NCBI GenBank assembly: GCA_025210795.1
Contig: JAOAQZ010000039.1
Location: 1-64,000, forward strand
Source: Cohaesibacter sp.
GTDB lineage: Bacteria; Pseudomonadota; Alphaproteobacteria; Rhizobiales; Cohaesibacteraceae
Direction of reading: 5' to 3'
Length of the DNA: 64,000 nt
This document shows, one piece after another, positions 19,100 through 62,846 of this stretch. Under the pieces are notes generated by a model that saw only the letters and a list, made by a program, of their open reading frames with translations, did not search any database and was not told the DNA's origin. Each line of letters begins with the position of its first letter. Within the stretch, counting starts at the first letter, position 1. The translations under genes were made by a program, and so were the position numbers.

Positions 19100-19726
19100 A
19101 TGGGCAATTGGAGCACAAGAATTTCCATGCTGGTTATAGCCGGTTTCCTGTCAGGCTGCATGGCGCAGATCGCCCCAACGCCAGAGCGGTGGATCAAAAC
19201 CACAAAAATGCGGGCACCAAGCGATAGCACGCTCTATATTTGTCACGCTTTTGGTTGCAAACTGAGCTATGCTTTTAAAACCAATCAGGATGATCTTGAC
19301 GCTATGACCAAGATCCTGACGAATGATCAGGAAAATGCCGAGCAAGAGCGCAAGGCTATGGGCAAGCTCATCCAGTATTTTGAGGTGCGCGTCGGACCAT
19401 CCGTTGGTTCGGACAAGGATAAAGGCGGGCTTGATCTACATAACTCCGGCACGCCGGGCCAAATGGATTGCATTGACGAAGCGTCAAACACCACGTCCTA
19501 TCTGCTCTTTGCGCAGCAAAAAGGCCTTCTGAAACATCATACCGTTTCTTCGCCAGTCGCACGCGGCTTCTTCCTTGACGGCCGCTATCCTCATGCCAGC
19601 GCAGTGGTCAAGCAAAAGATTAGCGATAGCCTTTATGCCATTGATAGCTGGGTAAAGGATAATGGGGAATTTCCAGTCATCAAACCGCTGGATGAATGGT
19701 TCGCCGAAAGACCGCAAGGCCTTTAA
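19100..19726 (+). CDS. lipoprotein with possible Cys-His-Asp protease-like fold
   Basis: A 208-residue predicted lipoprotein. The signal sequence ends in the lipobox LSGC (Cys20), so the mature protein should be anchored to a membrane facing the periplasm. The C-terminal half contains GQMDCIDEASNTTSYLLF (Cys124), RGFFLDGRYPHASAVV (His165) and LYAIDSWVKDNG (Asp182). This order and spacing resembles transglutaminase-like cysteine peptidases, where Cys, His and Asp form a triad. The assignment is a pattern inference; no family is recognised with certainty. It is divergent from trmFO with 151 bases between starts. Confidence 0.6.
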   Translation: MGNWSTRISMLVIAGFLSGCMAQIAPTPERWIKTTKMRAPSDSTLYICHAFGCKLSYAFKTNQDDLDAMTKILTNDQENAEQERKAMGKLIQYFEVRVGPSVGSDKDKGGLDLHNSGTPGQMDCIDEASNTTSYLLFAQQKGLLKHHTVSSPVARGFFLDGRYPHASAVVKQKISDSLYAIDSWVKDNGEFPVIKPLDEWFAERPQGL

Positions 19727-19851
19727 AAAATCAAAACAGATCTTCTAACCGGCAGAAACAAGGTCCAATGCGCCAAAGCATAAGGTGCATGATTGTCTGT
19801 GTGCAATTTTTCGGATGATGATCGTCTGGATCGGCCCACAAAAGGGCTCTT

Positions 19852-19965
19852 TAAAAAACGAAAGCCTACCGGGGGAGGAGGTCCGGCAGGCTTCGTTTTT
19901 TTGTTTCAAAACGGGGAGGATCGTTCTGAAACCCATCAGGTTTCATGGGAGGAGGAAGAAACCTG
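19852..19965 (-). ncRNA. three CCUCC-loop hairpins in the DUF1127 3' UTR (CcsR/cuckoo RNA-like)
   Basis: Reading the minus strand from seven bases after the DUF1127 stop: hairpin 1, 8-bp stem CAGGTTTC/GAAACCTG (19965-19958 and 19944-19937), with CCTCCTCCC in a 13-base loop. Hairpin 2, 11-bp stem (19932-19922 and 19913-19903, one G-U pair), loop ATCCTCCC. Hairpin 3, stem of about 15 bp with a bulge (19897-19883 and 19872-19858), loop containing CCTCCTCCC, followed by a T run, so it doubles as the terminator. Loops matching the anti-Shine-Dalgarno CCUCC, placed after a DUF1127 gene, are the hallmark of CcsR/cuckoo small RNAs, which in Rhodobacter are processed from the ccaF1 transcript. Structure was judged by eye. 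Confidence 0.8.
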
Positions 19966-19971
19966 AAATTC

Positions 19972-20124
19972 TTATTTCTTTGCCGCGCGGCGGGCAACGA
20001 ATTCAATATCTCCGCGTCCAATACCCAGATCATTAAGATCGCGGCTGGAGAGGCGGCTCAGCTCATTAACCGTTGTACGGTAATTACGCCACTGCCGATA
20101 GTTTTTCACGACATTATCAAACAT
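19972..20124 (-). CDS. DUF1127 small basic protein (CcaF1/YjiS-like)
   Basis: A 50-residue protein: N-terminal MFDNVVKNYRQWRNYRTTV, then the DUF1127 core ELSRLSSRDLNDLGIGRGDI and a basic tail ending in ARRAAKK. The motif L-x-x-L-S-x-R-x-L-x-D-L-G-I is complete. In Rhodobacter sphaeroides a member, CcaF1, is an RNA-binding protein that affects maturation of the small RNAs encoded behind it. Other members act in stress and nutrient responses. The start has AAGGATG about ten bases upstream. The 3' UTR carries the hairpin array described at 19852-19965. The leader contains a further hairpin (20168-20189). Confidence 0.93.
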   Translation of the reverse strand: MFDNVVKNYRQWRNYRTTVNELSRLSSRDLNDLGIGRGDIEFVARRAAKK

Positions 20125-20153
20125 TGCAGTCATCCTTGGTTGTTATGCAACGT

Positions 20154-20245
20154 GGCACAATTATTTTGCCGAGGGTTCGCTCCCTCAGCATGTTGAAAAG
20201 AGATATAATATAGTTCGCACAATTTTGCATCGCACAATTTTGCAT
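20154..20245. repeat. three related dyads upstream of the DUF1127 gene, two in a 15-bp tandem repeat
   Basis: CGCACAATTTTGCAT occurs twice in direct tandem (20216-20230 and 20231-20245). A longer relative, GGCACAATTATTTTGCC, lies at 20154-20170. All share the near-palindrome GCA-c-AATT-t-TGC with one mismatched pair. Between them, GCCGAGGG (20168-20175) and CCCTCAGC (20182-20189) form a leader hairpin. On the minus strand the tandem copies overlap possible promoter elements (TTGTGC and TATATT/TATAAT-like sequences around 20205-20240). They may be operators. Confidence 0.55.
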
Positions 20246-20436
20246 AGCTGCCGTGCGATGCATGCATTCCTAGCCCTAGCAAATGGTTTAGACAGATGGG
20301 GAAATATCTGTATCCCAATGATTCTATTGCAGTTTATTTGGCGGTTATGTGCATTTCTCAGATGTGGTATGACTAGAGGGAATGACAAGGAGCAGGGAAG
20401 GAGGGAATGACGGATGAGGTCAGCCGGCAACTGCAA

Positions 20437-20468
20437 ACAAAAAGCCGCCCCAAAAATGAGGCGGCTCT
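20437..20468 (-). terminator. terminator of uvrA
   Basis: On the minus strand AGCCGCC (opposite 20460-20466) pairs with GGCGGCT (opposite 20443-20449), then a T run, about 55 bases after the uvrA stop. Confidence 0.88.
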
Positions 20469-62696: not shown

Positions 62697-62775
62697 AGAT
62701 GAAATCGGCGGGCCTCTTTTACAACAGGCCCGCTAACATCATCCAAGGCCCGAAGCCTTCAAGGCCATATGAATC

Positions 62776-62816
62776 AAAAGCCCCCCGGTTGCCAATAAGC
62801 ACCGGGGGGCTTTTTA
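62776..62816. terminator. bidirectional terminator between ialB and hspQ
   Basis: A perfect 14-bp stem, AAAAGCCCCCCGGT (62776-62789) with ACCGGGGGGCTTTT (62801-62814), and an 11-base loop. It serves both convergent genes. Two smaller hairpins lie before it: GCGGGCCT/AGGCCCGC (62708-62733) and AAGGC/GCCTT (62745-62759). Confidence 0.92.
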
Positions 62817-62846
62817 TTTCAGAATAATAGGACCAAGACAGCCCAA

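Follow-up and report, generated by a model that had tools for sequence, protein, structure and literature searches.

Locus structure

The window, a 64,000-nucleotide stretch of a Cohaesibacter sp. contig analysed at its full length, carries on its minus strand a short DUF1127 gene that is followed directly by a small RNA of the alpha-r14 family and preceded by a promoter region with an LsrB/VtlR-type box. The features, listed from the promoter towards the terminator, are as follows:

20266-20254, minus strand: TGCA-N6-GCA element TGCATGCATCGCA, resembling the LsrB motif in the promoter of NfeR1
20254-20242, minus strand: LsrB/VtlR-type box ACGGCAGCTATGC, form A-N3-CA-N3-ATGC (exact consensus match; conserved in the genus)
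20208-20203, minus strand: probable -10 hexamer TTATAT (assigned from its position)
20137-20133, minus strand: Shine-Dalgarno sequence AAGGA, 8 nt 5' of the ATG (from the sequence)
20124-19972, minus strand: DUF1127 small protein, 50 codons, 50 aa (Pfam PF06568, E 3.2e-15)
19971-19857, minus strand: alpha-r14 (ar14, RF02344) small RNA, with a terminator tail to 19853 (Rfam)
19966-19936, minus strand: hairpin 1, loop UUCCUCCUCCCAU (fold and covariation)
19932-19903, minus strand: hairpin 2, loop AUCCUCCC, with a shortened motif (fold; compensatory stem changes)
19901-19853, minus strand: hairpin 3, the intrinsic terminator, loop ACCUCCUCCC, U tail UUUUUU (fold and covariation)

The 50-codon minus-strand DUF1127 gene of the original prediction was confirmed by its ATG behind the AAGGA site and by the Pfam match. 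A second in-frame ATG further upstream would give a protein of 53 aa, but it overlaps this ribosome site. The DUF1127-ar14 locus is neighboured by a convergent gene (19100-19726, plus strand), a GidA/TrmFO-family gene, and uvrA. The product of the convergent gene is 208 aa long, carries a signal of lipoprotein type (LSGC), and had no Pfam match. A plasmid-collection search with the uvrA neighbour yielded no match.

Three hairpins had been predicted to begin seven bases after the DUF1127 stop codon. Their number stands, as does the identity of the third with the terminator, but the start had to be corrected: in the minimum-free-energy fold, hairpin 1 is separated from the stop codon by 5 unpaired bases. 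On the minus strand, the loop motifs are CCTCCTCCC at 19955-19947, CCTCCC at 19919-19914, and CCTCCTCCC at 19881-19873. The fold agrees with the loops as first described (CCUCCUCCC, CCUCCC, and CCUCCUCCC), with the anti-Shine-Dalgarno (aSD) motif unpaired in all three, in full in loops 1 and 3 and as CCUCCC only in loop 2. Given its short loop, the hairpin 2 module is perhaps weaker than the others. The folding energy of 19971-19853 was -52 kcal/mol, against a mean of -24.4 for shuffled sequences (z -8.3), and 0 of 200 shuffles folded as well.

Assignment to the alpha-r14 family

The Rfam model RF02344 matched the locus over its whole length (model positions 1-123 of 123) at 78.2 bits against a gathering cut-off of 58.8, with an E-value of 2e-12 in a search of the whole window. 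With this match, and with loops and stems kept in relatives, the hairpins are not due to chance. Our own covariance model, R1, which was built partly from the sequence of this locus, gave 117.7 bits for 19971-19857. The genome holds a single Rfam copy over the ar14 cut-off, the one at 19971-19857, so there are no close paralogues that would mask a knock-out.

Two further R1 matches within the window, at 62702-62823 (plus strand) and 8405-8316 (minus strand), were rejected as extra copies, since they are ordinary GC-rich terminators without aSD loops. Both are strong, look like the third stem of ar14, and match the model weakly.

The locus had been placed in the cuckoo/CcsR-like class of CCUCCUCCC-loop RNAs that lie downstream of DUF1127 genes, and the Rfam match to ar14 supports this placement. 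The particular family model named for it did not fare as well: ar14 is the closest Rfam family, while the CcsR1 model (RF02791) had no match at E <= 1 in 19700-20450, and membership of CcsR1 was rejected on this result. It had also been suggested that three single-hairpin modules in a row may represent a variant architecture. That suggestion has to be dropped, because three hairpins, bearing an identical CCUCCUCCC aSD motif on highly variable stems, are the defining form of alpha-r14/NfeR1 (PMC10746234, PMC7143759); the three-hairpin form is the family norm, and an independent variant was rejected. A 2011 study reported S. meliloti families in which the number of such hairpins is two, three, or four, and proposed a single family that varies in its number of modules and takes in the two-hairpin Rhodobacter RNA (PMC3927594). 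DUF1127 genes paired with cuckoo/CcsR-like RNAs have likewise been described before, as the "CIN1 locus" (PMC10253847). Both the three-hairpin form and the DUF1127 link were thus known already.

Conservation in relatives

Conservation was surveyed in 60 relatives and the window's own genome, with the DUF1127 genes of relatives detected by HMM. We found ar14 in 18 of 18 genomes of the genus, counting the window's own, and the family's two other genera have it as well. In 38 of the 40 family copies over the cut-off, a DUF1127 gene lies 0-55 nt 5' of ar14, the exceptions being L118 (genome G013) and L119 (genome G008). The original prediction had considered that the loop motifs might be lost in relatives while the coding region was kept; the opposite was observed, as all 31 distinct genus sequences retain the CCTCCC core in every loop (93 of 93). 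Shortening of single loops recurs among these sequences.

The stems were assessed across 40 distinct sequences in a model-based alignment, which leans towards structure: 29 of the 33 pairs had changes on both sides, and such cells numbered 117, where shuffles gave 28.5 and none of 500 reached the observed value. Sliding the pairing partner lowered every covariation measure. Helix 2 was partly misregistered in this alignment and was recounted from individual folds, in which most of its positions showed two or more alternative standard pairs.

The hairpins lie directly 3' of a stop codon and end in a terminator, and they could on that account be read as no more than a stabilising 3' UTR and terminator for the DUF1127 message, inactive in trans. 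We consider this very improbable, because the CCUCCC core is kept in all loops while the stems vary with compensation, and because L118 and L119 have a promoter region 77-80 nt 5' of the RNA and the hairpins without a DUF1127 gene. NfeR1, which belongs to this family, is trans-acting (PMC10746234). Among named Rhizobiaceae and Phyllobacteriaceae, most ar14 copies stand alone, with a DUF1127 gene at 60 nt or less in 1 of 30 and at ~165-360 nt in 7 more, so the RNA as such can do without a DUF1127 partner. At the Cohaesibacter locus, the alpha-r14 RNA is very probably a 3'-UTR-derived sRNA of the DUF1127 transcript.

Promoter and regulator

The reverse complement of the upstream box, GCATAGCTGCCGT, agrees with GCAT-N3-TG-N3-T, the form that the VtlR/LsrB box takes in Brucella and Agrobacterium (PMC7486931), a box also noted in the AbcR1 promoter (PMC8844928). 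VtlR targets in Brucella, DUF1127 genes included, carry the motif CAATGCAGCCATGCA (PMC12595884), with which the window shares 12 of 15 positions in the same orientation. The LsrB motif of the NfeR1 promoter is TGCA-N6-GCAT (PMC10746234), and the similar TGCA-N6-GCA element lies directly 5' of the box in many of the operons of the genus.

We observed the exact A-N3-CA-N3-ATGC consensus within 260 nt of the DUF1127 ATG in all 35 DUF1127-ar14 operons of the genus (35 of 35). It is present in the copy from genus g3 and absent from the two copies from genus g2. The L118 and L119 boxes have one consensus position changed (CT for CA), with the rest mostly kept, and the consensus stands before about half of the named Rhizobiaceae ar14 copies. 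The longer form of the box, ANNNCAGCTATGCA, occurs twice in the window's own genome; the second occurrence, at G000:C28:19462, lies inside an ORF and was set aside as a chance match.

Some 39 nt separate the TTATAT hexamer from the CTATGCA of the box. In relatives the hexamer reads CTATAT or CTATCT, and the distance from the box to the CTATAT-like -10 is near constant across them. A sigma-70 consensus promoter scan of the upstream region gave no match and no consensus -35, which fits an activator-dependent promoter and makes the transcription start site a predicted position only.

A query with the LysR gene that stands beside tandem AbcR copies in an Ensifer genome identified an LsrB orthologue with LysR domains at G000:C29:3674-4561 (61% identity, 416 bits), well separated from the next LysR protein (129 bits, 29-32% identity). 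The Rhizobiaceae arrangement of AbcR beside lsrB was rejected for this genome, where the single suhB/AbcR-type match lies in another context.

From the box and the orthologue together, LsrB/VtlR probably switches the DUF1127-ar14 operon on. With 36 LysR-like matches in the genome and a consensus as loose as A-N3-CA-N3-ATGC, the box might instead belong to another LysR-type regulator, in which case the operon would answer another signal. This appears somewhat unlikely, given that the box fits both the VtlR form at Brucella targets, DUF1127 genes among them, and the Agrobacterium form, and that the same consensus recurs before Rhizobiaceae ar14 copies. The conserved LsrB-type box over a DUF1127-alpha-r14 dicistron is the one element of the locus for which no description was found in the literature surveyed.

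Comparison with known systems

The window RNA shares with alpha-r14/NfeR1 (Smr14C2, SmelC397; RF02344) a length of ~115-120 nt, three CCUCCUCCC-loop hairpins of which the last is the terminator, a score over the Rfam cut-off, an LsrB-type box upstream, and variable stems with conserved pairing. It differs in having loop 2 shortened to CCUCCC and in lying directly behind a DUF1127 gene, whereas the RNAs of Sinorhizobium and other Rhizobiaceae mostly have their own promoter and no adjacent DUF1127 gene. SmelA075 and SmelA099 (Reinkensmeier 2011, PMC3927594) likewise consist of three or four consecutive CCUCCUCCC-loop hairpins with variable stems, but occur in several copies per genome, against one copy over the ar14 cut-off here. 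The short DUF1127 genes that belong to the VtlR/LsrB regulon in Agrobacterium (atu1667/SDPs) and Brucella (BAB1_0914, BAB2_0512, and BAB2_0574), compared here from their published descriptions, resemble the window gene in their product length of ~50 aa and their VtlR-type promoter box; the literature surveyed mentions no alpha-r14 RNA attached to them.

The arrangement at the CIN1 locus, with a short DUF1127 gene directly upstream of the RNA on the same strand and no terminator between, is also that of the window. In Rhodobacter sphaeroides ("cuckoo", "CIN1 locus"), ccaF1 is followed on the same strand by the CCUCCUCCC-loop hairpins of CcsR1-4 (RF02791) and a terminator. This gene order, the loop motif shared with CcsR1, and weak CcsR1 matches in two relatives (29-30 bits, cut-off 65) would be expected if the locus were of the Rhodobacter type, encoding a heat- and oxidative-stress RNA under RpoHI/RpoHII control whose maturation depends on a CcaF1-like DUF1127 protein. 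Such an identity is quite improbable for the window. It has the single three-hairpin ar14 unit and no CcsR1 match at E <= 1, while CcsR consists of four tandem two-hairpin RNAs. The elements recognised upstream are a conserved LysR-type box and a CTATAT-like -10, whereas ccaF1-CcsR uses an RpoHI/HII promoter. The proteins also differ in size (50 aa against 71 aa for CcaF1).

Proposed mechanism and targets

We propose, with a probability of roughly 0.85, that the locus produces an LsrB-activated dicistronic RNA yielding a DUF1127 protein and an alpha-r14 sRNA that would silence mRNAs with G-rich ribosome sites. It is built on the DUF1127 gene, the assignment of the RNA to its family, hairpin covariation, synteny, the promoter box, and the LsrB orthologue; how the locus is transcribed and processed, which mRNAs are targeted, and what the protein does are predictions. 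An activator-dependent promoter, probably used by LsrB/VtlR, would give one transcript encoding the 50-aa DUF1127 protein and carrying the alpha-r14 (NfeR1/cuckoo) sRNA at its 3' end. The sRNA would start at or just after the DUF1127 stop codon, and an RNase E-type cut within the AU-rich junction AAGAAAUAAGAAUUUC would probably release it. The three loops of the sRNA, presenting CCUCC(UCC)C, may then pair in trans with GGGAGGAGG-like ribosome-binding sites and block translation, mainly of uptake genes, as NfeR1 and the candidate sites suggest.

A pattern search of the window's own genome found GGGAGGAG 4-13 nt before an ATG in 27 places, against 1 for the reversed pattern. About 10 of the 27 sites open long reading frames, and the list includes spurious ORFs. 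Transport is represented among these candidate targets by DctP (a TRAP solute-binding protein), two ABC solute-binding proteins, and an ABC permease; also among them are LutB, an AMP-binding enzyme, a flavocytochrome c sulfide dehydrogenase flavoprotein, and a thioredoxin-like protein. DctP and Peripla_BP_6 genes with GGGAGGAG correspond to candidate loci L157 and L165. The NfeR1 targets are mostly transport genes (PMC7143759). The small list obtained here points to transport as well, in a way that is suggestive only, as genes would in any case be expected to have strong Shine-Dalgarno sites in front of them.

The DUF1127 protein may aid RNA maturation as CcaF1 does in Rhodobacter, or it may act separately through partners such as PhoR. 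CcaF1 is described as binding RNA and aiding CcsR maturation (PMC10253847). Short DUF1127 proteins of Agrobacterium act on PhoR, and CcaF1 can replace them; YjiS of Salmonella showed no RNA binding (PMC12501420). The 38 of 40 linkage favours a shared purpose of protein and RNA, but L118 and L119 carry the RNA without a DUF1127 gene in cis.

Implications

The locus is a clear further case of a DUF1127-alpha-r14 operon, this one from outside Rhizobiaceae and Rhodobacter, and offers a simple setting for asking whether DUF1127 proteins act on RNA or on proteins. Its conserved box joins three separately reported findings, namely the activation of DUF1127 genes by VtlR, that of NfeR1 by LsrB, and the co-occurrence of cuckoo RNAs with DUF1127 genes. 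In Rhizobiaceae and Brucella, the short DUF1127 protein and the aSD sRNA, as two arms of the LsrB/VtlR regulon, are separate genes. We tentatively suggest, at somewhat less than even odds, that this bacterial family fuses the two arms in one dicistron under one LsrB box, an arrangement that may be ancestral both to stand-alone NfeR1 and to stand-alone VtlR-dependent DUF1127 genes. If so, protein and riboregulator would always be co-expressed, and L118 and L119 would exemplify the split of an ancestral operon.

Other arrangements in relatives

Several relatives carry more elaborate arrangements. Tandem arrays with four DUF1127 genes in a row each were seen at L026:864-2530 (G026) and L138:421-2550 (G019), where most of the genes have a two-hairpin aSD unit and a terminator of their own behind them; in neither array does the first gene have a clear CCTCC loop. 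At L132:857-1825 (G018), three DUF1127 genes are interleaved with two ar14 RNAs in 1 kb, and a search of this region for an LsrB-type box found none. L003-L016, L113-L117, and L120 mostly have an extra small hairpin (AGTCTTTCGCT...AGCGAAAGC) in a DUF1127-ar14 spacer of 40-55 nt, a hairpin absent from the window's own sub-clade. In the Rhizobiaceae copies L184, L185, L189-L191, L202, and L204, a further CCTCCTCCC element (ATGCACCTCCTCCCGCAAAGC) lies just 5' of ar14 and probably represents a four-hairpin form.
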